The notes under the pieces were generated by a model. The model was given only the letters and a program-made list of their open reading frames with translations. It was not told the origin of the DNA and ran no database searches. A stretch of DNA of 64,000 nucleotides from Antrihabitans auranticaus (GTDB taxonomy: Bacteria > Actinomycetota > Actinomycetes > Mycobacteriales > Mycobacteriaceae): positions 930,001 through 994,000 of the forward strand of contig NZ_JAEMNW010000001.1 in the NCBI RefSeq assembly GCF_016481275.1, read 5' to 3'. The stretch's first letter is position 1. Every line of letters starts with the position of its first letter. A program made the translations under genes and the position numbers. Positions 19,510 to 39,534 of this stretch are shown piece by piece.

Positions 19510-19529
19510 CCTAACATATGTTATATTAC
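19510..19529 (+). promoter_or_regulatory. Island motif site A (TetR operator candidate) before the first WS/DGAT
   Basis: CCTAACATATGTTATATTAC. The core TAACATATGTTA is a perfect 12-bp palindrome. It is the most symmetric of seven related sites in the 19.5-39.5 kb island and lies 108 bp before the WS/DGAT start. Confidence 0.6.
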
Positions 19530-19637
19530 GTGTGAGTCTGGGAACCGACTCGGCAACAGGCATCCTCTGAAGACGTCGGCACGAACCACTCGTCGCTCTG
19601 CGTCGGACGAAAATTGGCCCACCCCAAGGAGATTGCT

Positions 19638-21023
19638 GTGCAGACGATAGTCCTGAAACCCTTCGACGCGGCCTGGTTCTACGTCGAGAAGGCCGAAACT
19701 CCTGCGAACGTCGGCCCCCTCCTTATTCTGACGCCGCCTGCTGGTGCACCGGACAACTTCATCAGCGAATTCGTCGAACAGTGGCGACAGTGCAAAACTT
19801 TCATGCCACCCTTCAACTACCGGATTCGGCGCAACCCGATACCCGTCTGGGAAGTGCTGCCCGACGACGCAATCGATCTCGACTACCACCTTCGACACAG
19901 CGCCCTGCCCGCGCCCGGTGGCGAACGCGAACTGGGTGTGATGATTTCGCGCCTTCACTCCCATCCGCTCGATCTCAAACGACCGCTGTGGGAGTGCCAT
20001 GTGATCGAGGGGCTCGCCGGCGGCCGGTTTGCTATCTATATGAAGTTTCACCACGGCCAACTCGACGGTGTTGCTACCACTCGGCTATTCGAAGGAGTCC
20101 TCAGCTCCGATCGATCGGCACGCGGAATGTTGCCGCCGTGGGCGGTCGGCGTTCGTAGCAGTACCGGTCGAGACTCGAAGCAGAACACGACTCCCAGTTC
20201 AGGCATGGGACTGCGAAACTCGTTGGGCGGTATTGCAGGCGCGGCGAAAGGCCTGTTCCGCATGGCGACCACGATTCGATCCGGCAGCGAACCTGAACTT
20301 ACCGGACCCTTCCAGGCCCCGGACACTATCTTCAACGGTCGCATCAGCGCTCAGCGCCGGTTCGCCACCCAGCAATACGAATTGGCCCGCTTCAAACGAG
20401 TTGCGAAGGCCACCGAAGTCAGTGTCAACGATGTGTTTCTGGCGGTCACCGGTGGTGCCATGCGGCGCTACCTCATGGAGGTCGACGCTCTGCCTGAACG
20501 TTCGATCGTTGGACAGGTCCCCGTGAGCGTCCGCGCGACCGACAGCAATGGCGTCGGTAACCAGATTGCGTTCATGTACGCGCGACTTCGTACCGACATC
20601 GAGGATCCGCTCGAACGACTCGCCGCCGTCCACGCCTCCACTGCCGCCGGTAAGGCGATGCACGAATCCCTGCCAGCGGAATCGGTCACACCGTTCACCA
20701 TGCTGCTCAGCGGTCCCTACATTGCTCAGACGATTCTCGGCCTCGGCGGGCGGGTATCTCCTGCAGCCAATCTGGTTATCTCGAATGTGCCCGGACCGCC
20801 GGCTCCCCTGTTCTTCAACGGTGCGAGCGTCGAAGAAATGTACGGCCCCTCCGTTCTGTTCCACGGTCAGGCACTCAACATCACGATGTTCAGTTACGCC
20901 GGACGGGCAAACATCAGCTACACCGGTTGCCGCGACTCCATGCCGAGCATGCAGAAGCTGGCCGTGTACACCGGCGAGGCCCTCGATCATCTCGAATCAG
21001 CTGTTGGGGCCAAGATTTCGTAG
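19638..21023 (+). CDS. WS/DGAT acyltransferase (wax ester/triacylglycerol synthase), copy 1
   Basis: Bifunctional-type acyltransferase of 461 residues that esterifies acyl-CoA with long-chain alcohols or diacylglycerol to make storage lipid. The N-terminal catalytic motif HHGQLDG (H138-G144) fits the family HHxxxDG. PLWECHVIEGL precedes it, and the C-terminal domain contains VISNVPGP. The GTG at 19638 with AAGGAG seven bases upstream is preferred to the in-frame ATG at 19614, which lies before the ribosome-binding site. It is transcribed from a region holding motif site A and is followed by the oxygenase operon. Confidence 0.9.
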   Translation: MQTIVLKPFDAAWFYVEKAETPANVGPLLILTPPAGAPDNFISEFVEQWRQCKTFMPPFNYRIRRNPIPVWEVLPDDAIDLDYHLRHSALPAPGGERELGVMISRLHSHPLDLKRPLWECHVIEGLAGGRFAIYMKFHHGQLDGVATTRLFEGVLSSDRSARGMLPPWAVGVRSSTGRDSKQNTTPSSGMGLRNSLGGIAGAAKGLFRMATTIRSGSEPELTGPFQAPDTIFNGRISAQRRFATQQYELARFKRVAKATEVSVNDVFLAVTGGAMRRYLMEVDALPERSIVGQVPVSVRATDSNGVGNQIAFMYARLRTDIEDPLERLAAVHASTAAGKAMHESLPAESVTPFTMLLSGPYIAQTILGLGGRVSPAANLVISNVPGPPAPLFFNGASVEEMYGPSVLFHGQALNITMFSYAGRANISYTGCRDSMPSMQKLAVYTGEALDHLESAVGAKIS

Positions 21024-21105
21024 CAGCCCTTCGCCGAGGTGCCCTCACGTTCCATCGCAGCTCGCACTCGATTCGAAACAACGCGCAACAGGTCTTGATC
21101 GCAAA

Positions 21106-21125
21106 CCTAACATAGGTTATCTTAT
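21106..21125 (+). promoter_or_regulatory. Island motif site B before the Rieske/P450 operon
   Basis: CCTAACATAGGTTATCTTAT, the best match to the seven-site consensus. It contains AACCTA-ACA-TAGGTT when extended to 21104-21118. It lies 105 bp before the small membrane ORF that opens the operon. Confidence 0.6.
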
Positions 21126-21230
21126 AACAACGTTCATAGCTCGATGCACCCACGATCAGCGCTCAGGCGCCCCGGTCTCGTGGTACAGCAAATGTTGGGG
21201 CGCAATAGGTTACGTGGAAGGAACGACAAC

Positions 21231-21380
21231 ATGACTTTGTACTTCTACCTCTCGATCTACGCGTTCGTCTTCGCACCCATGGTGCTTCCCCCCGTCCTTC
21301 AGCTGGTGGAAGTGATCGTCCGCCGCGTCCGCGCCCTGGTGTCGCCGACCGCCCAGCGCCAGCCGACCCTCGCTGTCTGA
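21231..21380 (+). CDS. Small single-span membrane protein (49 residues)
   Basis: Starts at an ATG with GGAAGGA eight bases upstream. The sequence begins MTLYFYLSIYAFVFAPMVLP, with one hydrophobic helix (residues about 3-28), then an Arg-rich amphipathic stretch (VIVRRVRALV). No family was recognised. It is the first gene after motif site B and lies 55 bp before the ferredoxin reductase gene, so it may help place the oxygenase system at the membrane. That role is a guess from context. Confidence 0.6.
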   Translation: MTLYFYLSIYAFVFAPMVLPPVLQLVEVIVRRVRALVSPTAQRQPTLAV

Positions 21381-21435
21381 TGTACCGACCTCCGCCGCGA
21401 CCGACTCGCGCCGGTACCGAAAGGAGCCCTGGCTG

Positions 21436-23522: not shown

Positions 23523-23553
23523 TCACCCTCCGGGGCTGACGAAAGGAACATCG

Positions 23554-24928: not shown

Positions 24929-25576
24929 CTATGCCGGCCGCCCAAGACCCGAATCATCATCTTCCGCGAGGCGTGCCGCGACGCGGCGCGCTACCAAGAG
25001 TTCGTACTCGTCGAAGAGTGCGTCGAAGTAGGTTTGCTGGCTGTGCGATCGCCACTGTTGCAGCCCGATGAAGATTGTCATCCCTATGACGGCGAGCCGG
25101 TCGGCGTCCTCGTCTGACCCTACCTGCGGCCGCAATGCAGCAGCCAACGCTTCGGTGCGCAGCCTGTCGATCCGCCTCTGCGCTTCCGCGACCCGCTGGT
25201 TCGTGTGTGCCCAGGCACGCATCGACACTTCCGCCCTGAATGGGACTTGCGCAGTGAGGTCTTTCAGCAGTCGGCGCCGATCGTCGGACGCGGTTTCACC
25301 GGGTCGCACTTCGCTGATCCGCGCTGAGTGCAGTAACTCCCAGTGCGCGAGAAGTTCAGCAACGAATCCGTCGAAGCTTCCGAAGTACCCGTAGAACGAT
25401 CCGGTTGTGATCCGCAGACCCTTGCACAGCGGCGCAATTTTCAAGCTCGTAGCACCCTTCGTGGCCAGCAGCTCGAGCGCAGCCTCGAAATAGTCCTCGC
25501 GCGTAACAGTGAGATGCAACTCTCCACTCTCCTGTCGCCGACTCGGTTCGGTCCCAACAACTTCCGCCGCCGTCAT
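24929..25576 (-). CDS. TetR-family regulator, island paralogue 1
   Basis: Repressor of about 215 residues. The HTH domain carries LTVTREDYFEAALELLATKG and ITTGSFYGYFGSFDGF. It is clearly paralogous to the TetR at 29660, which has SVTREDYFEAAMNILATEG and VTTGSFYNYFGSWDAF, and the likeness continues in the ligand domain. The start is uncertain; the ATG at 25576 gives a normal length, while the longest frame starts at 25642. Two motif sites (C and D) lie between it and the divergent WS/DGAT gene, so autoregulation and control of that operon are likely. Confidence 0.87.
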   Translation of the reverse strand: MTAAEVVGTEPSRRQESGELHLTVTREDYFEAALELLATKGATSLKIAPLCKGLRITTGSFYGYFGSFDGFVAELLAHWELLHSARISEVRPGETASDDRRRLLKDLTAQVPFRAEVSMRAWAHTNQRVAEAQRRIDRLRTEALAAALRPQVGSDEDADRLAVIGMTIFIGLQQWRSHSQQTYFDALFDEYELLVARRVAARLAEDDDSGLGRPA

Positions 25577-25657
25577 GCCATAGCGGCGTGCGCCGGAAAC
25601 GGTGGGCAGTCGCCAATCGCGAACACGGCCGCATCGCCACAACCTCGGAAAGGCTTA

Positions 25658-25677
25658 CGTAACGTAGTTTATCTTAC
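25658..25677 (+). promoter_or_regulatory. Island motif site C (TetR1/WS-DGAT2 divergent region)
   Basis: CGTAACGTAGTTTATCTTAC lies 82 bp upstream of the TetR1 start. It shares TAACGTAG-TTATCTTA with site D, exactly 60 bp away. Confidence 0.6.
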
Positions 25678-25717
25678 AGTAACTTGCACGAAGGGCGGAA
25701 GCAGTCTTGCGCTTGAA

Positions 25718-25737
25718 GCTAACGTAGCTTATCTTAT
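25718..25737 (+). promoter_or_regulatory. Island motif site D before the second WS/DGAT operon
   Basis: GCTAACGTAGCTTATCTTAT, 70 bp before the WS/DGAT2 GTG. It differs from site C mainly at the edges. Paired sites in a divergent region are typical for an autoregulated TetR. Confidence 0.6.
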
Positions 25738-25806
25738 ATTTCGACTGAAGGCGCACTCTCACCTCTCCTGATCGCAAACTTGCGACCGTCGCGAAAGGAC
25801 GATCAC

Positions 25807-27210
25807 GTGACGCAACGCCGACTCGGCCCCGTCGACGCGGCCTTTCTTCATGTCGAAGACCGCTCGAATCGGATGCAGCTTGCCGGTGTACTGATCTTCG
25901 ACGGTGACGCTCCGCCATTCGCAGAATTCCGCGACGCGATCGCGCGGTGCCTGCCCCTGCTGCCACGCTTTCGCCAGCGCCTGCAGCACTCCTCATTGCG
26001 TCTGAACCGGCCGACGTGGGTCGACGACGATGCCTTCGATCTCGACTATCACTTGCACCGATTGGCGCTCCCGGCGCCCGGGAGACATGCCGAGATCGTC
26101 GGTCTCATCGACCACATCACTGCGCAACCACTGGATATGCAACGTCCCCTGTGGGAACTGGCGCTGGTCGAAGGGCTCGGCGGACGCTTCGCCGTATCGA
26201 TCAAGGTCCACCACAGCATGGTCGACGGCCTATTCATCATCGATATCTTCGCCGTCCTGTGCAATCCCGATCCACAGCATCAACTTCCCGATCCGCGAGA
26301 GTGGAAACCGCAACCTCCGCCATCGTGGTGGCACCGGGTTCACCGTGTTCGGCCGCCGGACCTCCCCCGCAAGTCGGGGAAGATCCTCGTCGCCTGCAAG
26401 ACAACCGACGCAGAAAGCTGGAAATTCGTTCGGCGCCTGCAGCGAGCTCGGCGACTCATCGGACGCGCCCCCGAAACCCGGTTCAACTCGGGTGCTCCCA
26501 GTCCCGTCCGGCGAAGTGAATTCCTCACTATTCCGCTGGACACGATTCACGACATCCGGTACGCCCACCGCACCACTGTCAACAACGTGGTCCTGGCGAT
26601 TGTCGCCGGCGCGTTGCATCGATACCTTGTCCGCCACGACGAACTCGTCGATCACCTGCACGCTTTCGTACCAGTGAACCGACGGCCGCAGGACCAGCGC
26701 GGGGAACTCGGCAACCAGATCGCGATGACCTACCCATCTCTGCCCGTCGGCGAGCCGGACCCCGCCGCCCGGCTCGCCGGTGTCATCACGGCGGTCGAAT
26801 CAGCCTCTGCCGCAAAGGAAGCCGACGACACCGCCGCGCTGATGAATCTGACGAAGTACGCTCCCCAGCCGATAGTGGCAGCGCTGAACCGCGCCATGCA
26901 CTTCGACACAAACATGTTCAACTTGACGGTCACCAATGTCGCGGGGCCGCACATCCCGGTCTACTTCCTGGGCCGCCAGCTCCAGCTGATTCTGGGCGCT
27001 ACACCGTTGACCCGTCGCCACGCCCTCACCGTTGCTGTCCTCAGCTACCGAGGACAGTTGACGTTCTCGGTGACCACCGATCCCCGTCGAGTCCCCGATC
27101 TCGCAGCACTGATCGACGACATCACTGCCGAGATCGACGCGCTTCATGCACTCGCCTCCCGATCCGGTGACACAAGTTCGGCAACCTCGACCACTAGGAG
27201 AGATTTATGA
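25807..27210 (+). CDS. WS/DGAT acyltransferase, copy 2
   Basis: Acyltransferase of 467 residues with the catalytic motif HHSMVDG at residues 135-141 and the family blocks DAAFLHVED (start) and TNVAGPHIPVYF (C-terminal domain). It is only distantly like copy 1, so the two may prefer different acceptors. The GTG at 25807 follows GAAAGGA by seven bases. Its stop overlaps the SDR start (ATGA). It opens an operon SDR - Mam - Mam - small peptide - Cys-rich protein, controlled from sites C and D. Confidence 0.9.
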   Translation: MTQRRLGPVDAAFLHVEDRSNRMQLAGVLIFDGDAPPFAEFRDAIARCLPLLPRFRQRLQHSSLRLNRPTWVDDDAFDLDYHLHRLALPAPGRHAEIVGLIDHITAQPLDMQRPLWELALVEGLGGRFAVSIKVHHSMVDGLFIIDIFAVLCNPDPQHQLPDPREWKPQPPPSWWHRVHRVRPPDLPRKSGKILVACKTTDAESWKFVRRLQRARRLIGRAPETRFNSGAPSPVRRSEFLTIPLDTIHDIRYAHRTTVNNVVLAIVAGALHRYLVRHDELVDHLHAFVPVNRRPQDQRGELGNQIAMTYPSLPVGEPDPAARLAGVITAVESASAAKEADDTAALMNLTKYAPQPIVAALNRAMHFDTNMFNLTVTNVAGPHIPVYFLGRQLQLILGATPLTRRHALTVAVLSYRGQLTFSVTTDPRRVPDLAALIDDITAEIDALHALASRSGDTSSATSTTRRDL

Positions 27211-28034
27211 CCGCTACATCACTGCGCGGCCGCCGCATCGCAATCACCGGGGCCGGCCGCGGCATCGGCCTCGCTACCGCCAGGGAGTTGTACCGCCGCG
27301 ACGCAGACGTCGTCATCGGCGATCTCGATCAAGCGTCCGCGGCGGCTGCCGCCGCAACGATCGGGCCGGGCGTCGATGCCTACGAACTCGACGTGTCGGA
27401 CCACGCATCCTTCGCCGCCTTCATCGAAAAAGCCTCCGCGAAGGCACCGCTGGACGTCCTGATCAACAACGCCGGCATCATGCCGATCGGCAACTTCCTC
27501 GATCTATCGCCGGCCACCCACAGACGCGCCGTCGAAATCAACGTTCTCGGCTGCGTATATGGGATGCACCTGACGCTTCCCGCCATGGTCGCCCGCAGGC
27601 AGGGACACATCATCAACGTCGCATCGACAGCTGGAAAGGCGCCTGTACCAGGTGGTCTCAGCTATTGCGGCACCAAATCGGCGGTCGTCGCGCTCACCGA
27701 AACCGCACGTGTCGAATTTGCGGGCACCGGCGTGGACTTCACCTGCGTGATGCCGCACTTCACCAACACCGAACTCATCGCCGGAACCAAGGCAACGAAG
27801 CTGGTCCCCGTCGTCGAACCCGAAGACGTGGCCCGCGCCATCGCGAAGACAATATCGGCGCCCGCCGCAGATGTCTTCGTGCCCAGGGTAATCGGGGCGA
27901 TTCTCAAGTCTCAGCCTCTCATGGGCCGTTCCCTCCGCGACCTTGTCAGCCGCAGGCTGGGCGCTTACCAGACCTTCCTGACTTTCGACCGCGATGCCCG
28001 TGCCGGGTACGACCGGCGGATCGGCAAGCCATGA
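27207..28034 (+). CDS. SDR-family oxidoreductase
   Basis: Short-chain dehydrogenase of 275 residues: cofactor motif ITGAGRGIGLAT near residue 12, NNAG near 88, catalytic Tyr-x3-Lys in SYCGTKSAVV near 152. Its place between a wax-ester synthase and Mce-associated genes suggests that it interconverts an alcohol and aldehyde or ketone of a lipid substrate, for instance supplying the alcohol for esterification. This is inference from context. Confidence 0.85.
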   Translation: MTATSLRGRRIAITGAGRGIGLATARELYRRDADVVIGDLDQASAAAAAATIGPGVDAYELDVSDHASFAAFIEKASAKAPLDVLINNAGIMPIGNFLDLSPATHRRAVEINVLGCVYGMHLTLPAMVARRQGHIINVASTAGKAPVPGGLSYCGTKSAVVALTETARVEFAGTGVDFTCVMPHFTNTELIAGTKATKLVPVVEPEDVARAIAKTISAPAADVFVPRVIGAILKSQPLMGRSLRDLVSRRLGAYQTFLTFDRDARAGYDRRIGKP

Positions 28035-28062
28035 CGTCCACACCGATTCGAATCGAGCACCC

Positions 28063-28590
28063 ATGAAGATATTGCACGCGCTTCGCCAGCTGACCGTACG
28101 ACCTACACTCACCCCCTTTCGCTGCACCGTGATCGTGCTGTTCGCGACCGCCGTCGTCTTCGCGGTTCTCGCCGGCTCACAGCTGCAACGACATCACGAG
28201 AGCGAGAACGAGCGCACACGCGATGCCGAAATTCTTGCGACCGCGCGCTCGGGTGTGACAGCCATGATCTCGATCCGCGACGTCTCTGCTGCGGCAGATG
28301 TACAGAAGGTCCTCGACCAGTCCACCGGGACTTTCAAGAACGACTTCCAGGCGCGCGCAACTGCCTTTATCGGCGTCGTCGAGGAAGCCAAAGTCGTCAC
28401 CCAGGGCGACGTCCTCGCCGAAGGAATCGAATCCCGAACCCGCGACTCGGCGGTCGTGCTCGTCTCCGCGACCTCGACTGTGTCCAACGCGGCAGGCGCG
28501 GCCGACGAAACGCGCAATTGGCGACTCCGGGTCACGATGACCGACGACGAAGGGCAATACAAAATGTCGAACGTGGAGTTTGTGGCATGA
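28063..28590 (+). CDS. Mce-associated membrane protein (Mam), copy 1
   Basis: Protein of 175 residues with one N-terminal transmembrane helix (TVIVLFATAVVFAVLAGS, about residues 22-40) followed by an extracytoplasmic domain with ARSGVTAMISIRD and KNDFQARAT, the pattern of Mce-associated proteins. In most mycolata such genes directly follow mceF on the same strand; here they face the operon from an opposite-strand unit. The next gene overlaps by ATGA. They probably stabilise the Mce complex. Confidence 0.8.
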   Translation: MKILHALRQLTVRPTLTPFRCTVIVLFATAVVFAVLAGSQLQRHHESENERTRDAEILATARSGVTAMISIRDVSAAADVQKVLDQSTGTFKNDFQARATAFIGVVEEAKVVTQGDVLAEGIESRTRDSAVVLVSATSTVSNAAGAADETRNWRLRVTMTDDEGQYKMSNVEFVA

Positions 28591-29186
28591 GCACACAGAC
28601 ACCGATCGAACAGATCACCGAGAGCGCATCCCAAAGACTCTCTCCCTCAACTTCATCCGGCGCCGTGCCCGTGCCGGCACCTCGGTCAGGCAAACATCGC
28701 AGGCGCAAAGCATTCGCGATCGTGATCAGTGCCTGCCTTGCCGTCGCGTCGATCGGCACGTGGACGTACCTGTTCTTCGGGGTCTCCCCCACTGACGATG
28801 CTGTTGCTCCGAACCGCCAACAGGTTGCCGTGGACGCGGCCGCGACCGCCGCGACCGCAATCCTGAGCTACAGCGCCGACACTGTCGAGACCGACCTCGG
28901 TGCCGCCAACCAACTCGTCACCGGCACGTTCGGTGACTACTACCGGACCTTCACCCGGGACGTCGTCGTGCCGGCAGCGAAGGAGAAGCGGATCAGCACG
29001 GTAGCGACAGTCGTCGGCAAAGCAATCTCGGCTTTCAGCGACGACACCGCATCCGTTCTCGTCTTCGTCAATCAGTCGACGACCACGGCCGCTGCCGCGG
29101 AACCCACCGTCACGACAACCACCATCCGCATCGAAGTGGAGCGCCACGGCGACCAGTGGCTTGTCGCAAAGTTCGACCCTTCCTGA
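28587..29186 (+). CDS. Mce-associated membrane protein (Mam), copy 2
   Basis: Protein of 199 residues: a cytoplasmic basic segment (SGKHRRRKAF), one transmembrane helix (AIVISACLAVASIGTWTYLF, about residues 43-62), then the Mam-type domain (AATAATAILSYSADTVETDL; TGTFGDYYRTFT). The C terminus ends VERHGDQWLVAKFDP, a familiar Mam ending. It overlaps Mam copy 1. It likely works with the Mce operon at 30-39 kb. Confidence 0.82.
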   Translation: MSTQTPIEQITESASQRLSPSTSSGAVPVPAPRSGKHRRRKAFAIVISACLAVASIGTWTYLFFGVSPTDDAVAPNRQQVAVDAAATAATAILSYSADTVETDLGAANQLVTGTFGDYYRTFTRDVVVPAAKEKRISTVATVVGKAISAFSDDTASVLVFVNQSTTTAAAAEPTVTTTTIRIEVERHGDQWLVAKFDPS

Positions 29187-29216
29187 CCGCCGCCGATTCC
29201 GAAAGATCGCACTCAC

Positions 29217-29614: not shown

Positions 29615-29659
29615 CGAGGACGGAAGCGAACACGGGCCCATGCGGGCGGCAGCGAAAGT

Positions 29660-30265: not shown

Positions 30266-30277
30266 GTTAAAGCCGTG

Positions 30278-30297
30278 TGTAATAGACCTTATCTTTC
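30278..30297 (+). promoter_or_regulatory. Island motif site E upstream of TetR paralogue 2
   Basis: TGTAATAGACCTTATCTTTC, the weakest of the seven sites. It keeps TAA and TTATCTT of the consensus and lies between mceF and the TetR start. Confidence 0.4.
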
Positions 30298-30369
30298 GAT
30301 TCTAGAGCGGCATCGACGATCGGAGCTTCACGAGGTCGGCGGGTCGCGGGACCGCCGACACGCGTGCCG

Positions 30370-31581
30370 TCAGTTCACACCGGACCCGATCGGAGGGTTG
30401 GTGCCGAGCGGGACATAACCGTCCTGGTCCCGGCAAGCGTCGACGTCGGGTGCCCGTCTGCCGGGATTTTCCATGCACGGGAAGTTCCGCGCACCACGGA
30501 CAACACTCGGGTCGTCCTGCGCAATTGCGCAGTATCCGGGAGCCTGTGTCTCGATGGGGGCCGCATCCGCAGCTGAGCGACGCTGGTCAGGCGGAAGGTA
30601 GCCGGTGATGCACGGTGGGGGTGCGTTCACGCCGAGATTGAAGTCGAGGTTGCCCATGCCAGGTTCGGATCCGGCGACGACGCTTTGAATCGCCGCGGCC
30701 ATCGCGGGGTACACGACCAAGATTTGCTCGAGACTCATGTGGTAGATCCGAAGCACGTCGGCGATCGAGTTCAGATTTGTCAGTGTGGTCGGCAGCGTTG
30801 GAGCAATCCTGTTGAAAAGGTCGGTTCCTTCGGCCCCTGCGGCGGCGCCGTTGACGAGAAGGCCACGGACGTGGTCGTCGTTGACTGCGACCGAGGTGGT
30901 GATCGAACCGAGGTACCCGGTCCACGCGCGGATCGCTCCGGCTGATTCGATCTGTGTATCCAGCAGTGGCCCGGCATTGTCGATGAGTTGCAGCGTCGGC
31001 TCCAGGTTCTTCTGACTCTCGTCGAGGAAATCGTCGAGGCCGTCGAGGATCTGCTGAATGTCGTTGCCGGAGTTGCGAAATGCCTCGCCACTTTCGTCGA
31101 TCAAGGTCTGCAGGTCGGCTCGCGGCACATCCTGCAGCGCGGTGTCGAGCGTAGCGACCAATTGTGCGGTCGAGGTGGGAACTGCGTTGCTGACGATGGT
31201 GTCACCGTCGTCGAGGTAGGGTCCGTCGTCGGTTTGCGGGAGCAACTCGATGTACTGCTCGCCGATGGCGGACCGGCTGTGCACCTCTGCCCTGAGATTT
31301 GTCTTCGGGATATCGATGTCGTCCTCGAGATACATGGTGACGACGACCGCGTCACCGTCGATTCGCATTCCATCGACCACACCGACATGGATTCCGCGGT
31401 AGGTGACATTCGATTTCGGGTAGAGACCACCGCCGGACGGCAGAATCAGCTCGACGGTGTTGCGGCCGACGCCGAGCATCGACGGCACTCGCAGGTACTG
31501 ACTCACAATCCAGCCGACCGACACAAGGGTGATGACGGCGAACGCGATCAGTTGATAGCGGACAAATTTCGATAAGAGCAT
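30370..31581 (-). CDS. mceF: Mce-family protein, MceF position
   Basis: Last of six Mce proteins of an ABC-type lipid importer, 403 residues. N-terminal transmembrane helix (LIAFAVITLVSVGWIV) followed by the MCE domain (about residues 38-115; VELILPSGGGLYPKSNVTYR) and a long helical region. The C-terminal tail is Pro/Cys-containing. Start overlaps the mceE stop by one base. MCE proteins form a hexameric channel carrying lipids across the periplasm to the YrbE permease. Which mce system (1-4) this corresponds to cannot be told from sequence alone. Confidence 0.9.
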   Translation of the reverse strand: MLLSKFVRYQLIAFAVITLVSVGWIVSQYLRVPSMLGVGRNTVELILPSGGGLYPKSNVTYRGIHVGVVDGMRIDGDAVVVTMYLEDDIDIPKTNLRAEVHSRSAIGEQYIELLPQTDDGPYLDDGDTIVSNAVPTSTAQLVATLDTALQDVPRADLQTLIDESGEAFRNSGNDIQQILDGLDDFLDESQKNLEPTLQLIDNAGPLLDTQIESAGAIRAWTGYLGSITTSVAVNDDHVRGLLVNGAAAGAEGTDLFNRIAPTLPTTLTNLNSIADVLRIYHMSLEQILVVYPAMAAAIQSVVAGSEPGMGNLDFNLGVNAPPPCITGYLPPDQRRSAADAAPIETQAPGYCAIAQDDPSVVRGARNFPCMENPGRRAPDVDACRDQDGYVPLGTNPPIGSGVN

Positions 31582-32711
31582 CAGTTTCCGCCTTGCCCAG
31601 GAACGTTCAACGGTGTGATCAGCGGGTTGCCCTGGATCGGCGGGATCGGCGGTAGTTGCCCGAGTAGTCCACCCAGAGAAGCCAATTGGCCGGCGGCAGG
31701 TGTCCCGGTCAGCAGTGCCTTGTCGAGCCGTTCGGTGGTGAGATCCAGGTTGAGGAACAGGTTGGCAAAGTCGCCTTGAATCGCGTTGCGATAGGTGTTG
31801 AGCGGGAACGGCACCGTCAGCAGCAGTGACATCGACGACGGCAGAGCCGGTCCGGCGTCGGCCAAGCCGCGTAGCACCGGTTCCAACGCGCGGAGGTTGG
31901 CATCGAGGTCCTCGCGACTGCCGGTCACTACCTGGTCTGCCGCCGCAGCGAAGTCGCCAATTGCCGTGAGGGCGTTGGTCAGGTCGTCACGTTGTTCGTT
32001 CAGCGTCGTCAACGCGGGGTCGAGAGTTTCGAGACCTTCGTCGACGACGACGCGATCGTTGGCGACGACCGTCGCGAACCGGTCGAGTCCTTCCAGTGCG
32101 CGAATGATGTCGTCGCGTTGCTCGTTGAGGCGGCTGGTGAAGTCCTCGACATTGGTCAGCAAGTTCCGCACGATATCTTCGCGGCCGGACAGAGCCTCGC
32201 CGACCTCCCGATTGATTTCCTCCAATTTTCCGACACTGCCACCGGTGAGCAAGAACGACAAGGTCGACAGGGTCTGCTCGGTGGTGGGATATTGCCCAGC
32301 GCGATCCAGAGGGATTCGGTCGCCGTTATGCAGCTGTCCGGTCCCGGCCTCAGCCGGAGGAATCAGTTCCAGGTGCGACGATCCGAGCAGGCTGGTTACA
32401 CCGATCTTTGCGGTGGTGTTTTCCGGCAGCACAACGTCCTCGTCGAGCGACACCGACAACAGAGCATGGTCGTCTTCGACCTCGATCCGCCGAACGGTGC
32501 CGACGTTGACGTCACTGACCCTGACACGGGCGTTCTCGGTCAACGTGGAGACATCTGGCATCTCGATGTCGATGCTCCACGCGCCTTCGCCGGTACCTTC
32601 CGTGCCGGGCAACGAGAACTGATTGAGTCCGGTCCATCCGCAGCCGCTGAGGGTGACCGCAAGCGTGATCCCGCACATGACGACAGTCGACGATCGAGCG
32701 CGCATCCTCAT
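31581..32711 (-). CDS. mceE: Mce-family lipoprotein, MceE position
   Basis: MCE protein of 376 residues and the lipoprotein of the set: signal peptide with lipobox TLSGC, lipidated Cys24. The MCE domain (residues about 44-120; VRVSDVNVGTVRRIEV) is followed by a long helical part with repeated EQRDD turns (NEQRDDIIRAL, NEQRDDLTNAL) and a Pro-rich end. In Mce complexes the E protein is the lipid-anchored subunit (LprK-type). Overlaps mceD by four bases. Confidence 0.92.
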   Translation of the reverse strand: MRMRARSSTVVMCGITLAVTLSGCGWTGLNQFSLPGTEGTGEGAWSIDIEMPDVSTLTENARVRVSDVNVGTVRRIEVEDDHALLSVSLDEDVVLPENTTAKIGVTSLLGSSHLELIPPAEAGTGQLHNGDRIPLDRAGQYPTTEQTLSTLSFLLTGGSVGKLEEINREVGEALSGREDIVRNLLTNVEDFTSRLNEQRDDIIRALEGLDRFATVVANDRVVVDEGLETLDPALTTLNEQRDDLTNALTAIGDFAAAADQVVTGSREDLDANLRALEPVLRGLADAGPALPSSMSLLLTVPFPLNTYRNAIQGDFANLFLNLDLTTERLDKALLTGTPAAGQLASLGGLLGQLPPIPPIQGNPLITPLNVPGQGGN

Positions 32712-33982
32712 CGAGCACCGACTTCCGGAAGGCCGGGTAGCAGTAGGCCCGGCAGGCCTGGGACCGAGGGCAACGCCGGCGGAATCCGCAGCTGGGAGTC
32801 ACCACCGGTCCGAACAGGCGCCGCCAAGCCCGGCTCGCTGTATTCGATTTGGTCAGGGGTGGCGCCGACGGAGTTGCCCACGACCGCTCCGATCGGGACA
32901 TAGTTGAATGCAAGGGTTTTCAGCACCGGTCCGAGGTACTGCACGCAGAGGTCGGTGGCCTCTTGCGCACCTTGCTCCCCCGCGGCGGCAATCGCCGAGC
33001 AGATGAACTGCACCGGATTGGCGAAGTTCGCCAGCGCCGGCGCGCCGGTCAGCGAGTTCTGCGCGGGCTGGTAGATGTCGTAGAGGTTCACCAGAGCGGT
33101 AGGCCCGACGTGAAGCACCTGTTCCAAGTCTCGGCGGTTGTCGGCCAATGACTGTGTTGCGGTACCGAGTTTGTCGACAGTCGCGCCGAGAGCGTCTTTG
33201 TTGTCCCGGACAAACTGTTCGATGTCGGTCACAGCGAGGTCCAAATCGGCCACGGCGTCCCCGATCGAGGTCTCGCTCGCAGCGAAGACTTCGGTGACCG
33301 ACGCGAGGTGGTCATTGAAGGCCACGATCTGCTGATGACTCTGTGACAATGCGTCCACGAGCACAGAGAGGTCGCGCACCATCGAAAACAGGTCCGTACG
33401 ACCATCCGACAGTGCGGTTGTCGCCTGTGCGAGGTTGGCCAGAGTCTCGTGCAATGTGGATCCGTTTCCTCGCGCGTTGTCTGCCGCTTTGGTAACGAAC
33501 TCGGCCAGAGTGCCGGTGGCATCACCGTCGTCCGATTGGGGCCCGAGGGTATCGGTCAGCCGGGTGAGCTGTTCCTTGATCTTGTCCCATTCGACCGGCA
33601 CGGCGGTCCGGTCCTCGGGGATCGTGCCGCCATCGGGCAACGTCGGTCCGCCGGTGTAGGCGGGGGTCAGTTGCACGAACCGGGTGGTGACCAGGGTCGG
33701 CGCGATCAACACCGCTTGCACGTCTGCGGGGAGCTCCCACTTCTTGTCCATCCGCATGTGGACCGCGACGCGCGTTCCTTCCGGCTCGATCCGCTCCACC
33801 GACCCGACGTCCACACCGAGAATCCGGACTTCGTCGCCCGGGAAAAGCCCAACTGCGGCGGGGAAGTACCCGACGACGGTGCGCGAAGTCAGCTTCGGGA
33901 CGACGACGTAGGCGAGAACGGCAAGAAGCGCCAGGACGCCAGCCGTCGACACGAGCGTGACAGTCTTGCGGCTCATGGTCAT
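32708..33982 (-). CDS. mceD: Mce-family protein, MceD position
   Basis: MCE protein of 424 residues: transmembrane helix at about 8-28, MCE domain about 36-115 (VGLFPGDEVRILGVDVGSVE), helical domain, and a Pro/Leu-rich tail (LPSVPGLPGLLLPGLPE) typical of MceC/D-type proteins. ATGA overlaps at both ends show tight coupling within the operon. Confidence 0.9.
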   Translation of the reverse strand: MTMSRKTVTLVSTAGVLALLAVLAYVVVPKLTSRTVVGYFPAAVGLFPGDEVRILGVDVGSVERIEPEGTRVAVHMRMDKKWELPADVQAVLIAPTLVTTRFVQLTPAYTGGPTLPDGGTIPEDRTAVPVEWDKIKEQLTRLTDTLGPQSDDGDATGTLAEFVTKAADNARGNGSTLHETLANLAQATTALSDGRTDLFSMVRDLSVLVDALSQSHQQIVAFNDHLASVTEVFAASETSIGDAVADLDLAVTDIEQFVRDNKDALGATVDKLGTATQSLADNRRDLEQVLHVGPTALVNLYDIYQPAQNSLTGAPALANFANPVQFICSAIAAAGEQGAQEATDLCVQYLGPVLKTLAFNYVPIGAVVGNSVGATPDQIEYSEPGLAAPVRTGGDSQLRIPPALPSVPGLPGLLLPGLPEVGAR

Positions 33983-35013
33983 CGGGGTGGTCCTTCCGTT
34001 GCCGGTGGCGTCGGTACGCGACCGTCGCCGAGCGCGGCGTCGATGAACGGTTGAATGAATTGGCCAGGAAGCAAATTCCCCACATAAGCGGTGAAGAACG
34101 GTCCGCTGCCGACGGCGTCGTTGAGAGTGCGCGCGTAGCGCGCCAACCCCGGCAGCGCCGCCTCGATCGAGGCCTTGTTGCGCTCGAGCAGATCCAGCAC
34201 GTTGTTCACCCGAGCGAGCGTGGGGCTCAACTGTTCCCGGTTGTCGGCGATCAAACCGCTGATCTGCTGGGAAACTGCAGCCACGTTGGTGGTGAGTGTC
34301 GAAATCGCCGACCGGCGTGCGTCGAGTTCGGCGAACAGCGTGTTGCCGTCCACGATCAACGCATTGATCTGGCGGCTACGTTCGGCCAGGACGCCGGTGA
34401 CCGACGACCCGTCAGCCAGCAGCTTCTTCAATGCCTCGTCGCGCGAGCCCAACGAATCAGACAGTCGCGCAACACCGTCGAGGGCAGTGCCTAGCTCCGG
34501 CGAGGTTTCGTCGAGCACACCCGCGGTGGCCCGTAGCGCGTCCGACAGTTGGTCGGTGTCGATGTCTTCGACGTTCGCAGCAAGCTTTCCGAGTTCGGTC
34601 GGCAGATCGTAGGGTGTGCGCGTGCGTTCCAGCGGTATAGCTGTGTCGGCGTCGAATCTGTCGTCGTCGGTGCTGGGTATCAGCACGATCGCCTTTGCGC
34701 CGAGCACCGAGCGGGTACGCATCTGCGCGCTCGGCGCCTCCCCCAGATTCAGATCGTCGCGGATCGACATAGTGATCTCGACGTCGTTACCGCGTAGTTC
34801 CAGGTCCCGAACGGTGCCGACATCTACACCGGCGAACTCCACCTTGTCGCCGGTCTTTATGCCACCAGCATCGGCAAAGACCGCCCGGATTTCATGGTCG
34901 GAATCGAGAAAGGGAAGTTGGTCGTAGTTGGAAACCGTTGCGACGGTGGCCAGAATAAGTGCGATACCGACGACGCCGGTGCGGGTCGTGTTGCGGTTCT
35001 CGAAGCGTCTCAT
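33979..35013 (-). CDS. mceC: Mce-family protein, MceC position
   Basis: MCE protein of 344 residues. The ATG at 35013 overlaps the mceB stop by four bases and is chosen over a longer frame that would extend 31 residues into mceB. Transmembrane helix about residues 10-30, MCE domain about 36-115 (IKTGDKVEFAGVDVGTVRDL), helical domain, and terminal blocks LPGQFIQPFIDAALG. Confidence 0.9.
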   Translation of the reverse strand: MRRFENRNTTRTGVVGIALILATVATVSNYDQLPFLDSDHEIRAVFADAGGIKTGDKVEFAGVDVGTVRDLELRGNDVEITMSIRDDLNLGEAPSAQMRTRSVLGAKAIVLIPSTDDDRFDADTAIPLERTRTPYDLPTELGKLAANVEDIDTDQLSDALRATAGVLDETSPELGTALDGVARLSDSLGSRDEALKKLLADGSSVTGVLAERSRQINALIVDGNTLFAELDARRSAISTLTTNVAAVSQQISGLIADNREQLSPTLARVNNVLDLLERNKASIEAALPGLARYARTLNDAVGSGPFFTAYVGNLLPGQFIQPFIDAALGDGRVPTPPATEGPPR

Positions 35014-36026
35014 TGCGGTGTCACGCACCTGCCTTGTTTCTGTTGCACGAGTTTGGTGATGATCGGCGTTCCGCCGGGGCCGTCGACCTTGAGCGTCACC
35101 GCGCACAGGTAGAAGTTGAAGAAACTGCCATAGGCGCCGAGCCGGCTCAACCGCTGGTAGGCGTCGGGAAGCTCGGTCAGCACCGCTTCGATCTGCGCGC
35201 TTCCATCATCGAGAACAGTTGCGGCGCGGTTTATTTCGGCGACATCGGCACGAATCGCGGGCCTGTCGTCGAGCAGCAGGTCGGCGACGGTTGCAGTGCC
35301 ACTGTTGATCCGCACCAGTGCGTCGGCAATCGGCGTGCTGCGCTGCGACAGCGTGGTAACCAGCTGCTGCAACTGGTCGATGATGTTCGACAGCGCCTGG
35401 CTGTCGTCACCGACGGTTTGCAGCGTCGTGCCCAAGTTGGCGATCACTGCGCCGATCAACTGGTCGCGATCGGCCAGTCGGCTGGTAAGAGCGGCGACTT
35501 GTTGCAGGATCCCCGTGATCGTTCCACCTTGGCCCTGCAGCACGCGCAGCAGTTCACCGGAGAGCCGGTCGACTTGCTCGGGCTCCAACGAGCGCGTCAA
35601 CGGTGCGAGCCCGCCGAGCAGCGCATCGATGTCGAGCGCCGACTTCGTTTGTGTGGCAGGAAAACTGCCATCCTCCGGCATGGGTTCGGCAATGTTCGGA
35701 CCGTTGACGACCTCGAGGTACCTATCACCGAGCAGGTTTTGATAGCGAACCTGCAAGGTGGCGTCCTTGGTAATGCGGACGCTGTCCGCGACGTCGAAAT
35801 CGACGTGCGCGGTTCGGTTTTCGAGTTTCACGGACCGCACACGACCGACATCCACGCCGGCCAGACGTACGACCTGGCCTTCCTTCAACCCGGATGCGTC
35901 ACCGAAATCGGCCTGGTACGGCGTCCGACTGTCGAGCCGGATCTGACCGAGTACGAGTATCAACATTCCGAGCACGAGCAGCATGGCGAGCGCGAACACC
36001 CCGAATTTGGCAACGTTCTTGGTCAT
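35010..36026 (-). CDS. mceB: Mce-family protein, MceB position
   Basis: MCE protein of 338 residues. The ATG at 36026 (MTKNVAKFGVFALAM) overlaps the mceA stop by four bases; the longer open frame upstream is rejected. One transmembrane helix, MCE domain about 36-112 (LKEGQVVRLAGVDVGRVRSV), then the helical region and a Cys pair near the C terminus (YLCAVTL, QGRCVTPQ). Confidence 0.9.
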   Translation of the reverse strand: MTKNVAKFGVFALAMLLVLGMLILVLGQIRLDSRTPYQADFGDASGLKEGQVVRLAGVDVGRVRSVKLENRTAHVDFDVADSVRITKDATLQVRYQNLLGDRYLEVVNGPNIAEPMPEDGSFPATQTKSALDIDALLGGLAPLTRSLEPEQVDRLSGELLRVLQGQGGTITGILQQVAALTSRLADRDQLIGAVIANLGTTLQTVGDDSQALSNIIDQLQQLVTTLSQRSTPIADALVRINSGTATVADLLLDDRPAIRADVAEINRAATVLDDGSAQIEAVLTELPDAYQRLSRLGAYGSFFNFYLCAVTLKVDGPGGTPIITKLVQQKQGRCVTPQ

Positions 36027-37210
36027 CGCAGCCCTCCGGGAATTCCGTACAGCATGAAGTCGAGAACGTTCAATTGAGCCGGACGGTCCGATGCCGCATA
36101 CGGATTGACGCCGGTATCGGTTACCAGGTACTTCGCTGGCCCGTTCGCGATGTCGAGGTATGGCAATTCGCCGCACCGCGGACCGCCGCCCGCGGCGACT
36201 TGTGGCAGGTTTCGCGGGTTCCTGTAGGGCATATCGCCGGCCAGCACGGTCGCGCTGATATTGAAGCCGGGAACCGTGCCGCCGATGACGTCTTCCACGT
36301 ACGCGCGGGCTTTGTCCAGGCCCTGAAAGAAGCAGGCGAATTCCGGTGAGTACTCCTCGAGCAGTTCGGATGTGGGTCGCAGTTGTTCCATCAACAGGTC
36401 GATCGACCGTTCGTTCTGTCGGAGCAGATCACTGCCGGTGGTGCCAAATCCGATTGCGGCGAGGAAGAACTGGTCCAATGGCTCCTTCAGCTCCACGACG
36501 GTGGATCCGGTGGTGGTCAGGGCGTCGACGCTGGCGAGAAACTCGGGCGCGACCTCGGCGTAGACATTGGCGACTTCAGCGGTGGCGACGAGATCCTGCT
36601 GCAGATTGTCCAGGCTCGGACGCAGCGCGTTCAGGTAGGAGTCGGCCTGCTCCAGGGTATGACCGAACTGCTTTCCCCGGCCACGAAAGGCGTCGGATAT
36701 GGCAGTCAGCGTCGCGTTGAGATCTTCTGGCGAGATCGCTTCGAGCACGGTCGTAAGCCGCTCGAACAATGTGTTCAGTTCAGGTGTGATGTTGCGGCTG
36801 TCGATGGTATCGCCGGTCGAAATCGGTTGCTCGTCCAGGTCTTTCGGCAATCCCAGGTTGATGTACTTGGCGCCGAACACTGTCGTCGAATCGATCGATG
36901 CGACCACGTTCGCCGGGATCGAACCGGCCTGCTCGGGGAAGAGGTCGAGTTCGATTTTCGCGTAGCCGTCGACCTCTTCTACCGCGCCGACGCGGCCGAC
37001 CTGGACGTCGAGCAGTTTGACGCGGGCACCGGGTTCGAGGATGAGGCCCGAGCGAGGTGCGAGCAGTGCGACCTTCACGCTGTCGACGAAAGCGCCGCGG
37101 AACTGGAGCGCGACAAAGACGGCGATCAGTGCCAGCGCGACGACGAATACTGCTCCGGCGGTGGTGTAGTGCGGCTGGCGGGGCGCACGCCGCTGTCGCT
37201 GCCCGGTCAT
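36023..37210 (-). CDS. mceA: Mce-family protein, MceA position
   Basis: First MCE protein after the permeases, 395 residues: transmembrane helix about 18-38 (AVFVVALALIAVFVALQF), MCE domain about 42-120 (LILEPGARVKLLDVQVGRV), long helical domain and a C-terminal region with GGGPRCGELPYLD. Position after yrbEB and ATGA overlap identify it as MceA-type. Confidence 0.9.
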   Translation of the reverse strand: MTGQRQRRAPRQPHYTTAGAVFVVALALIAVFVALQFRGAFVDSVKVALLAPRSGLILEPGARVKLLDVQVGRVGAVEEVDGYAKIELDLFPEQAGSIPANVVASIDSTTVFGAKYINLGLPKDLDEQPISTGDTIDSRNITPELNTLFERLTTVLEAISPEDLNATLTAISDAFRGRGKQFGHTLEQADSYLNALRPSLDNLQQDLVATAEVANVYAEVAPEFLASVDALTTTGSTVVELKEPLDQFFLAAIGFGTTGSDLLRQNERSIDLLMEQLRPTSELLEEYSPEFACFFQGLDKARAYVEDVIGGTVPGFNISATVLAGDMPYRNPRNLPQVAAGGGPRCGELPYLDIANGPAKYLVTDTGVNPYAASDRPAQLNVLDFMLYGIPGGLR

Positions 37211-38079
37211 CCGGCGAAGTTGAAGTTGCCCGACACGCCGTAGACGGCCAGGGAGACGGCAAGGCAGACGAAAACTACTGCAGCCAACGACGCACGCACG
37301 GCACGGCCGACCGCTTCACCGACACCGGCGGGTCCGCCCGATGCGTTGTAGCCGAAGTAGGTGTGGATCAACATGACGACAAGTCCCATCAAGATCGCTT
37401 GCAGGAAGGACCAGAGCAAGTCCGTCGGCACCAGGAAGGAAGTGAAGTAGTGGTCATAGACACCGCCGGATTGGCCGTAGACCACGATCGTGATCGTCCG
37501 GCTCGCGAGAAAAGAGGCGATGACCGCGACACCGTAGATCGGAACGATCGCGATCATGCCCGCCACAATGCGGGTGGAGGCAAGGTAGGGCACCGACCGC
37601 ACAGCCATGACCTCGAGCGCGTCGATCTCTTCCGAGATCCGCATAGCGCCCAATTGTGCTGTCGCACCGGCACCGATCGTCGCGGCCAGCCCGACCCCGG
37701 CGATCACCGGCGCAGCGATGCGCACGTTCACGTACGCCGCGAAGAACCCGGTGAGCGCTTCCACGCCGATGTCGCCGAGCGAGGAGTAGCCCTGCAATGC
37801 GACGACTGCGCCGGCCGACAAGGTGAGGAACCCGCAGATAACCACGGTTCCGCCGATCAGGGCCAGGGCGCCCGATCCCAGCGCGACTTCGGCGACCAGG
37901 CGAATGGTTTCGCGCGGGAAATGCTTGATAGCGGTAGGTATTTCGGCGATGGCGTTTCGGTAGAACACTGCTTGGCGGCCGACTTCGTCCAGCGACCTCT
38001 TCGCGCTCTTTCCGCGCTGGACGGTGTTGGTCTTGGCCCGGTCGAGCACACCCGACCGGCGTACGGCGATTGTCATCAT
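37207..38079 (-). CDS. yrbEB: YrbE/MlaE-family permease B of the Mce system
   Basis: Integral membrane permease of 290 residues with five to six hydrophobic segments. The MlaE signature is AQLGAMRISEEIDALEVMAV, containing the EExDALEVM element that contacts the ATPase. It pairs with YrbEA to form the transmembrane part of the importer; the ATPase (MceG/MkmA-type) is normally encoded elsewhere and is not in this window. The start overlaps the yrbEA stop; two adjacent ATGs exist. Confidence 0.92.
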   Translation of the reverse strand: MMTIAVRRSGVLDRAKTNTVQRGKSAKRSLDEVGRQAVFYRNAIAEIPTAIKHFPRETIRLVAEVALGSGALALIGGTVVICGFLTLSAGAVVALQGYSSLGDIGVEALTGFFAAYVNVRIAAPVIAGVGLAATIGAGATAQLGAMRISEEIDALEVMAVRSVPYLASTRIVAGMIAIVPIYGVAVIASFLASRTITIVVYGQSGGVYDHYFTSFLVPTDLLWSFLQAILMGLVVMLIHTYFGYNASGGPAGVGEAVGRAVRASLAAVVFVCLAVSLAVYGVSGNFNFAG

Positions 38080-38846
38080 CTACCTGCTGTCATCTTGATT
38101 CCGATGGCGGTCATCACGACATTGACCAGGAACAACGCCATGAACGCGTACACGACGGTTTCGTTGACCGCCTGCCCGACGCTTTTCGGTCCGCCCTTGA
38201 CCGTGAGCCCCCGATAGCACGCGATCAACGCGGCAATGAGTCCGAACGCACCAGCTTTGACCTGGGAAATCAGCAGTTCCGGCAGTCCGGTGAGCAGCGG
38301 GATACCGTCAACGAAGGCGCCGGGGGTCACGTTCTGGAAGAAGACCGAGAACCCGAAGCTGCCGACGATGCCGATCGCGCAGACAAGCGCATTGAGCAGC
38401 AGGGCAACGACAGTCGATGCCAGAACTCGAGGTGACACCAGCCGCACGACGGGATCGATACCCAGCACTTCCATCGCGTCGATCTCCTCGCGAATGGTGC
38501 GCGAGCCGAGATCGGCGCAGATCGCGGTTGCACCGGCACCGGCTACCACCAGCACGGTCACCACCGGCCCCACCTGGGTAACCGCGCCCAGCGTCGCTCC
38601 CGCGCCGGCAACATCCGAAGCGCCGAACTCCGCGGCCAAGATGTTGAAGGTAAAGCTGATGAGCGCCGTAAATGGCAGAGCAACAAGCAAAGTCGGCAAC
38701 AATGACACTCGCACGATGAACCAGCACTGGTCGATGAACTCGCGCCACTGGAACGGCCATACGACCATTCCACGAAAGGCGTCCGCCGAAAGCGCAAAAA
38801 ACTCCCCGAGAGATCCGAGCGGACGCAGCAGCACCTTCGTCGTCAT
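38076..38846 (-). CDS. yrbEA: YrbE/MlaE-family permease A of the Mce system
   Basis: First gene of the eight-gene mce operon: permease of 256 residues with the MlaE signature ADLGSRTIREEIDAMEVLGI and several transmembrane helices. GAAGGAG lies six bases before the ATG. Motif site F lies 36 bp upstream, so the whole operon is probably controlled there. Confidence 0.92.
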   Translation of the reverse strand: MTTKVLLRPLGSLGEFFALSADAFRGMVVWPFQWREFIDQCWFIVRVSLLPTLLVALPFTALISFTFNILAAEFGASDVAGAGATLGAVTQVGPVVTVLVVAGAGATAICADLGSRTIREEIDAMEVLGIDPVVRLVSPRVLASTVVALLLNALVCAIGIVGSFGFSVFFQNVTPGAFVDGIPLLTGLPELLISQVKAGAFGLIAALIACYRGLTVKGGPKSVGQAVNETVVYAFMALFLVNVVMTAIGIKMTAGR

Positions 38847-38881
38847 CCTTGCTCCTTCGCCGGCCGCCCATTCAAACCTAA

Positions 38882-38901
38882 GGTAAATTAGCTTATCTAT
38901 C
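38882..38901 (+). promoter_or_regulatory. Island motif site F before the yrbE/mce operon
   Basis: GGTAAATTAGCTTATCTATC, immediately preceded by ACCTAAG. It lies 36 bp upstream of yrbEA (minus strand). It shares TAGCTTATCT with site D and CCTAAGGTAA with site G. Confidence 0.5.
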
Positions 38902-38987
38902 CGAGGCGGTCAACCAGTGACGTCGAACATCGCGAGGCACCGTTTGCCGGGCTCGCTTTTCGCGACTGCGGACCTTACGATGCGCCG

Positions 38988-39455
38988 ATGAACGACTGGA
39001 GAGTACGTGGAGCGGCGTTGGCTGCAGCGCTGGTGACCACTCGCATGCTGATCGACCTCGGAGTCGAGGCGTCGCCCGACGCGGGAATAGTGTTGCGCTA
39101 CACCGGCTTGATCGCCATTGTGGCCATTGCGGTGGCGTGGGGATTTCTGGATGGCCAGCGCGATCGCAGACGCAATCCAGATCCCGATCGCGGCGCCGAC
39201 CTGACGATCGTGTGGCTTGCGGCTGCCGCCGCAGCAGGAGTCGGTGCCGCCGTGGTCGCCTGGTTGCTGGGTGTACTCAGCCCGCTCGACCTCGGCGGAA
39301 ATTCACTCCTGTTCGAACTGACTTCGGGTGCAGCGTGGTCGATGCTGCTCGTGTTCGCGTCAGCCCTCGCGGGATCGACGGCCGGCGCCCGCGTGGCCGG
39401 GACGTCACAGGGCGCCCGGTCACCGGAGGTCACGGTCTCGGCACCATCCGGGTAG
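38988..39455 (+). CDS. B-4DMT-family four-helix membrane protein
   Basis: Protein of 155 residues with four hydrophobic helices. The loop GFLDGQRDRRRNPDPDRGADLT is close to the conserved loop of the actinobacterial proteins annotated as B-4DMT transporters. Function is not established experimentally for this family as far as I know. It is divergent from yrbEA and upstream of fadD; no obvious ribosome-binding site precedes the ATG. Confidence 0.75.
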   Translation: MNDWRVRGAALAAALVTTRMLIDLGVEASPDAGIVLRYTGLIAIVAIAVAWGFLDGQRDRRRNPDPDRGADLTIVWLAAAAAAGVGAAVVAWLLGVLSPLDLGGNSLLFELTSGAAWSMLLVFASALAGSTAGARVAGTSQGARSPEVTVSAPSG

Positions 39456-39514
39456 CCGCGCGCTCCGCGCAGTCGCCTCGACGAAGAATCCGCGAGACAT
39501 CCCTGGCCATTTGA

Positions 39515-39534
39515 CCTAAGGTAAGTTATCTTTG
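39515..39534 (+). promoter_or_regulatory. Island motif site G before fadD
   Basis: CCTAAGGTAAGTTATCTTTG lies 33 bp before the GTG of the acyl-CoA ligase. It aligns with site B over most of its length. At this distance TTATCT could serve as a -10 element, so a bound repressor would block the promoter. Confidence 0.55.

Follow-up and report, generated by a model that had tools for sequence, protein, structure and literature searches.

The described systems closest to the locus analyzed here are KstR, KstR2 and Mce3R. As outlined in the sections of PMC1995591 drawn on here, KstR is a TetR repressor that controls many lipid genes and its own expression through a palindromic operator overlapping a putative −10 element, and it provides a precedent for operators placed in this way. 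The corresponding parts of PMC3068626 present KstR2 as the regulator of a small local regulon whose several operators lie in a catabolic cluster, mostly near start codons. For Mce3R of Mycobacterium tuberculosis, the excerpted account in PMC11667970 describes an mce operon and lipid genes under TetR-type control, with two sites tens of base pairs apart. Features of all three would recur in a lipid island of Antrihabitans auranticaus that spans 19.5–42.6 kb of a 64,000-nucleotide stretch (contig C1, positions 930001–994000, of a 6.5-Mb genome; hereafter the window). The island contains seven copies of a 21-bp sequence, and sequence comparison suggests, with a probability of roughly 0.8, that these serve as the operators of a TetR-family regulon that is local and autoregulated and in which two regulators, TetR1 and TetR2, would jointly repress the island.

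All seven sites listed in an initial annotation of the window were confirmed when their letters were checked, and all are intergenic in the gene model, where intergenic DNA makes up 2,214 of the island's 23,911 bp (9.3%). Distances to called start codons are 12–101 bp, except for the Rieske operon (309 bp), and both TetR genes have upstream sites. The sites stand far above chance. In a leave-one-out comparison using a 20-bp matrix over 127,962 window positions, with shifted registers of the sites counted as non-sites, four sites outscored every other position, while the site at 39515 was reached by one other position, that at 38882 by four and that at 30278 by five. The core TAANNTANNNTANNTTA has five exact matches in the genome (reversed control, 0). 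Rather than being spread at similar density over the genome, all five lie in the island. With one mismatch the count is 23 versus 6 for the control, many of the additional matches being shifted registers of the same sites or members of a second cluster on contig C12. With up to two mismatches the window holds 19 matches, shifted registers included (0.73 expected; largest shuffle, 3), of which one, at 5050, is outside the island.

Since the sites are AT-rich, AT-rich intergenic gaps might resemble each other by chance or composition. The consensus proposed in the initial annotation is in fact non-discriminating at three mismatches, because it has 15 genome matches versus 21 for the control. However, 5 Mb of Markov DNA of intergenic composition contains no core match, against five in the island, and the fadD site is conserved across genera (see below), so that this explanation is extremely improbable.

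A family matrix, built by extending the window sites with those of other genomes and symmetrising the result, gives seven peaks of at least 18 in the 24-kb island. In the window's remaining 40 kb, in five 20-kb stretches of the same genome and in 219 kb of Rhodococcus loci, no peak reaches 14. The five control stretches left out L031, L032 and L082–L084, which hold peaks; matrix scans of the genome covered the window and ten stretches, and whole-genome counts are those of core and pattern matches. By matrix, the contrast in density with the island holds for the rest of the window and for five stretches, but the other five have nine peaks of at least 14.

The sites are alike, as the initial annotation had proposed, and its shared pattern of about 20 bp has three exact matches, all in the island; the best unit, however, is a 21-bp odd palindrome, TGTAACATAA-C-TTATGTTACA, centred on base 11. 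The family matrix converges on TGTAACATAACTTATGTTACA (23 bits; core TAAnnTAnnnTAnnTTA), and is strongest at TA steps spaced 5 bp apart, with TAA and TTA at the ends. The perfect dyad reported for the first site (TAACATATGTTA, at 19512) is real and is not the best shared centre. In the window sites alone, a test that is non-circular and has a narrow margin, centre 0 (base 11) is best with 5.57 of 9 pairs; in the sites of other genomes it has 5.45 pairs versus 4.72 and 4.90, a symmetry peak that is partly circular because the matrix was symmetrised. Individually, the window sites are imperfect (5–8 of 10 pairs), and family sites look palindromic with the symmetrised matrix. The best single palindromes come from Mycobacterium barrassiae (TGTAACATAACTTATGTTTCA, 9 of 10 pairs) and G049 (TAACATAAATTATGTTA, a perfect 17 bp). 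For the site before yrbE we replaced the original position, 38882, with a frame beginning at 38877, which fits better (exact core versus two mismatches).

The motif also recurs outside this genome. A profile of eight TetR proteins retrieved 36 loci from named genomes. Scanning related genomes with a matrix of the seven window sites, as had been suggested, gave a site of at least 18 in 19 of the 36 TetR-selected loci, where the maximum in 1 Mb of Markov DNA is 17.6. After removal of L037 and L048, which belong to the island of the same-genus genome G002, the count is 17 of 34; the family matrix, from whose scan both loci were also dropped, gives 19 of 34. L056 and L057 among these loci are near-copies. 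Many of the strong sites sit in clusters of genes for aldehyde dehydrogenase (ALDH), short-chain dehydrogenase/reductase (SDR), WS/DGAT, reductase, P450, FadD and TetR, sometimes with mce genes.

The expectation of conservation upstream of orthologous genes was borne out, with sites kept before fadD and TetR2 and, in other gene orders and other genera, before P450/reductase and SDR/ALDH genes. G002 has four exact cores, three of them in its island (control, 0). Its gene order differs, yet sites precede the “MAS” pair, yrbEA and WS/DGAT1 (the last being CCTAATATAGGTTATATTACG), and another lies between a fadD-like gene and the reductase. The family genomes G067 and G049 share many of these genes and have sites ahead of the units, including a G067 site before TetR2 that is similar to site 5 (numbering as in Table 1). 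The fadD operator is kept in three genera: the window site is nearly identical to CCTAACCTAAGTTATCTTTGG in G067 and related to CATAATATAAGTTATCTTTTA in G049. Across 301 family genomes, the exact core is present in four of the seven with a clade protein above 250 bits versus 39 of the 294 others (Fisher p 0.009); adding G193, whose protein (213 bits) falls in the clade by tree, gives four of eight (p 0.017). Those four genomes have 13 core matches, of which 12 are in or beside the cluster or the TetR gene. No core match was found in the same-genus genomes G001 and G003; at E ≤ 1e-30 neither has a TetR2 homologue, the one in G001 having an E value of 2e-17.

A separate sequence, TAACATAATGTAGATTA, occurs once each in 10 of the 301 family genomes (G022, G063, G079, G095, G099, G138, G150, G181, G229 and G270). 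Five of these have a more distant TetR match of about 182–186 bits, far from the site where both are on one contig. It is possibly another conserved operator.

TetR1 and TetR2 are paralogues (41% identity over 182 residues), both with a TetR_N helix-turn-helix match (Table 1); homologues of TetR1 suggest a start further downstream than called. The AlphaFold model of TetR2 (pLDDT 87.5) has nine helices, and the best 50 of its 870 structural matches are all TetR-type by title, with TM-scores up to 0.72 and identities of at most 20%; those listed include EilR, AmtR, QacR, FasR and EthR. Palindromic sites lie near the regulators' own genes (25658 and 25718 for TetR1, 30278 for TetR2). In a tree of 49 TetR rows, labelled for motifs by hand from the locus scans and leaving out L147 and L149 (duplicates of L041 and L058) and one truncated L054 row, both proteins fall in a single clade of 30 rows. 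This clade divides into a TetR2-type branch (7 rows, support 99/91) and a TetR1-type branch (23 rows, support 99/93), in which TetR1 itself is on a long end branch, and 26 of the 30 rows belong to motif-bearing loci. The sister clade of 19 rows consists of 11 from Rhodococcus without sites (diverged TetRs), five with similar sites (two of them weak) and three with a second motif described below. Co-occurrence and phylogeny thus point to TetR1 and TetR2 as the probable binders, and they favor the proposal in the initial annotation of a TetR regulon joining lipid import, oxidation and storage.

In L044, L045, L050, L054 (Mycolicibacterium), L040 and G002 (C1:430.9–432.1 kb), the TetR1-type gene has a second, more diverged TetR gene as its tandem neighbor. 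Within the TetR1-type branch of the tree, these six rows group on a single long branch with full support.

A TetR-type repressor pair is the most likely reading because other bacteria have such sites close to matching genes, with related regulator genes alongside. We infer that TetR1, TetR2 or both would bind as dimers to the 21-bp palindrome, close to the start codons of most units. Bound there, they would block access of RNA polymerase to the promoters for import by Mce, oxidation by P450 and Rieske proteins, conversion to acyl-CoA by SDR, ALDH and FadD, and storage by WS/DGAT, until released by a lipid ligand, probably an acid or acyl-CoA that the pathway itself produces.

Several observations weigh against this reading. 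Within the tree, the scanned DNA shows no site for four of the 30 clade rows (Skermania, a Propionibacteriales metagenome-assembled genome, a 5.4-kb Nocardiaceae contig and a third G002 paralogue), and three sister-clade rows do have sites. By family matrix, 15 of the 34 loci lack a site of at least 18, 11 of them Rhodococcus, and sites within one genome are not independent. No site lies directly upstream of TetR2 in G002, and those before TetR1 in G067 (16.5) and TetR2 in G049 (15.5) are weak. The core is present in 43 of the 301 family genomes versus 57 for the reversed control (hand count), and it is no marker by itself because it is not enriched over the control across the family. In the window, the palindrome centre is barely ahead of the dyad at −2.5 (5.57 versus 5.43 of 9 pairs). 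Finally, the nine family-matrix peaks of at least 14 in five other stretches of the same genome comprise eight on C12 (603–658 kb) and one at C22:243729, which scores 20.5. The highest is 25.5, at C12:657810, and others in a second lipid island score 21.2, 20.5, 19.1 and 18.8; these values overlap or approach those of the window sites (20.6–29.0). With the window-only matrix, too, four of the ten stretches have a score of at least 18 (22.5, 19.0, 18.7 and 18.6). The stretches with peaks had been selected for loose matches or for the second lipid island. The motif can be called confined to the island for the exact core only, because looser matrices match the second island and a few other places; the core is also the cleaner test, because scores of about 18–22 occur a few times elsewhere. 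The regulon may reach further, or scores near 18–22 may belong to other TetRs.

These looser matches, some in the second lipid island and others preceding further TetR genes, would fit a regulator encoded elsewhere that reads the sites, with the two TetR genes merely among its targets; the TetR genes simply have upstream sites. Against this, exact cores are restricted to the island across the whole genome, and in other genera strong sites track the TetR1/TetR2 clade and are mostly absent where the TetR has diverged. We consider such an outside regulator unlikely and TetR1 and TetR2 the better candidates.

The second lipid island (C12:618–658 kb; L032, L082 and L083) has its own mce operon, a paralogous TetR gene (TetR3) and fadD-, P450-, ALDH- and WS/DGAT-like genes. 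Its motif is related, with a core, AATNTANNNTANATT, that has three exact genome matches, all there (control, 0); in G002 the same core has four matches, three of them at C1:441–446 kb. Which protein reads this motif is uncertain: TetR3, the TetR at C12:622732, or TetR1 and TetR2 by cross-talk. TetR3 (C12:626759) is doubtful, as none of the four G002 clade hits lies at the motif-2 sites at C1:441–446 kb, which are adjoined by a gene like the TetR at C12:622732. Looser matches at C12:287923 (L030:9922) and C22:243729 (L031:9727) each precede a further TetR-like gene. The divergent partner is an unscanned gene in one case and an acyl-CoA carboxylase-like operon in the other, and the matches are possibly operators of these neighboring TetRs.

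The repeated sequence might instead be a core promoter element. The actinobacterial −10 has the form TAnnnT, which TATCTT or TAAGGT in the sites would fit; the spacing from called starts is suitable apart from the site at 309 bp; and one of two sigma-70-like matches in 25500–40000, at 25713–25740, overlaps site 4. Those two matches are a chance number (2.1 expected), however, and promoters would be expected genome-wide, but the exact core occurs in one island. Conservation as a 21-bp palindrome and the pairing of sites in divergent promoters also fit operators, and a promoter element is very unlikely. Operators that overlap the −10 are likely.

Two sites 46–60 bp apart occur in the divergent promoters of seven loci (25658/25718 in the window, G002, L029, L040, L052, L054 and L146), as if each promoter had its own operator.

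The half-sites differ in composition. At half-site position 6, G (TAAG) is present in 21 of 46 half-sites from six TetR2-bearing loci versus 2 of 46 from twelve TetR1-type-only loci. Without L145, whose genome has TetR2 elsewhere, the latter count is 2 of 44, and without the two Antrihabitans genomes the comparison is 9 of 22 versus 2 of 46. Groups are by locus rather than genome and include only sites of at least 18 in 12 + 6 + 5 named loci, omitting the second site of L039 (16.8) and weaker ones; Fisher values for these counts assume independence of sites that are in fact related, and are purely descriptive. In the window, the mce and fadD sites are G/G, and those of TetR1/WS-DGAT2 and the Rieske operon (21106, 25658 and 25718) are C/G. 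One might therefore picture two paralogous repressors sharing one operator with differing half-site preference, TetR2 accepting TAAG and TetR1-type proteins preferring TAAC or TAAT. Mixed C/G sites would be bound by a TetR1–TetR2 heterodimer or by both in turn, and import and activation would answer a different signal from oxidation and storage. We hold this to be doubtful. In G049, where 10 candidates were scored and one clade TetR was found, the sites are of C/C and mixed type, which counts against it; a strict half-site code is weakened, and a heterodimer is not needed because, as G049 indicates, one regulator can serve both site types.

The gene order of the island is WS/DGAT1; reductase–Rieske–P450; TetR1; WS/DGAT2–SDR–two short proteins; TetR2; yrbEA/B–mceA–F; orf38988; and fadD–ALDH (Table 1). 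The claim that a site marks every transcription unit holds for 19.5–42.6 kb and fails beyond it, where the operon at 42744–45690 has no site. The nearest solved chains to the island P450 are CYP125MRCA, followed by CYP124 and CYP268A2, and P450 families of these types hydroxylate lipids and steroid side chains. The gene set would read as a single route: Mce import, P450/Rieske hydroxylation, SDR and ALDH oxidation, FadD activation and WS/DGAT storage.

Table 1. Candidate operators and gene units of the lipid island. Scores are from the symmetrised family matrix. Transcription units are judged from gene direction, and start codons are mechanical calls. The Pfam scan of the mce operon covered yrbEA, yrbEB, mceA and mceF; mceB–E are named by homology and position.
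Feature	Position in window	Strand	Context	Score or match
Site 1, CCTAACATATGTTATATTACG	19510..19530		upstream of WS/DGAT1	27.6, exact core
Site 2, CCTAACATAGGTTATCTTATA	21106..21126		309 bp before reductase/Rieske/P450 operon	29.0, exact core
Site 3	25658..25678		TetR1/WS-DGAT2 divergent region	27.7, exact core
Site 4	25718..25738		TetR1/WS-DGAT2 divergent region, 60 bp from site 3	25.7, exact core
Site 5 (weakest)	30278..30298		12 bp before TetR2	23.1, 2 of 10 core bases off
Site 6 (refined frame)	38877..38897		between yrbEA and orf38988	20.6, exact core
Site 7, CCTAAGGTAAGTTATCTTTGG	39515..39535		31 bp before fadD	23.3, one core mismatch
WS/DGAT1	19614..21023	+		TIGR02946, 441 bits
Ferredoxin-type reductase, Rieske oxygenase, P450	21436..24807	+	operon	Pfam matches
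TetR1 regulator	24929..25642	−	237 amino acids as called	PF00440, 24.1 bits (cut-off 24)
WS/DGAT2, SDR, two short proteins	25780..29186	+	“MAS” label of short pair by position only	short pair without Pfam match
TetR2 regulator	29660..30265	−	201 amino acids	PF00440, 25.7 bits (cut-off 24)
yrbEA, yrbEB, mceA–F	30370..38846	−	lipid transporter operon	MlaE, MlaD, Mce4_CUP1 matches
orf38988	38988..39455	+	155 amino acids	weak DUF2568 match, 20.4 bits (below cut-off 24.2)
FadD acyl-CoA ligase, aldehyde dehydrogenase	39567..42595	+	operon	PF00501, PF00171

If this reading holds, it gives a TetR clade that occurs in several actinobacterial families, and for which we found no assigned function, a short list of targets and an operator defined to the letter. 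It would also tie an Mce transporter, with a cargo to be found, to an oxidation route of P450, ALDH and FadD and to wax ester/triacylglycerol storage; because of this tie to oxidation and storage genes, the identity of the ligand would point to the Mce cargo. Two regulators with related sites would be a case for studying how TetR specificity diverges.

Set against the described systems, the locus differs from each in a particular way. The initial annotation was right that the motif is not that of KstR: TnnAACnnGTTnnA, the KstR motif as published, matches nowhere in the island and once in the window, at 47884, inside a called frame. KstR sites differ in length and spacing and, in the passages of PMC1995591 used here, are many and dispersed. 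The KstR2 motif as given in the available part of its description (PMC3068626), AnCAAGnnCTTGnT, has no exact match in the window and three with one mismatch, two of them inside island genes. Mce3R, as the excerpts of PMC11667970 have it, is a double TetR in one chain with nonpalindromic 25-bp sites, whereas the island encodes two single-domain TetRs, each with one TetR_N match, and carries an apparent palindrome; for the operators, the comparison is one of description. No chain named Mce3R appears among the PDB matches up to E 0.1. The idea of an unfused Mce3R, raised by long frames of 416–424 amino acids in six genomes and 417 in a seventh, was rejected, all seven being single TetRs with read-through in front. 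Predicted mycobacterial TetR motifs (PMC4482099, as excerpted) share the approach, with palindromes before divergent TetR genes, and the comparison is one of approach. Among the matches listed in our literature search, which covered titles and the openings of abstracts, we found no account of this operator or TetR clade, and it is on that search that the term “undescribed” rests. The island thus appears, with good support from comparison, to be governed by a new TetR regulon of a familiar kind.

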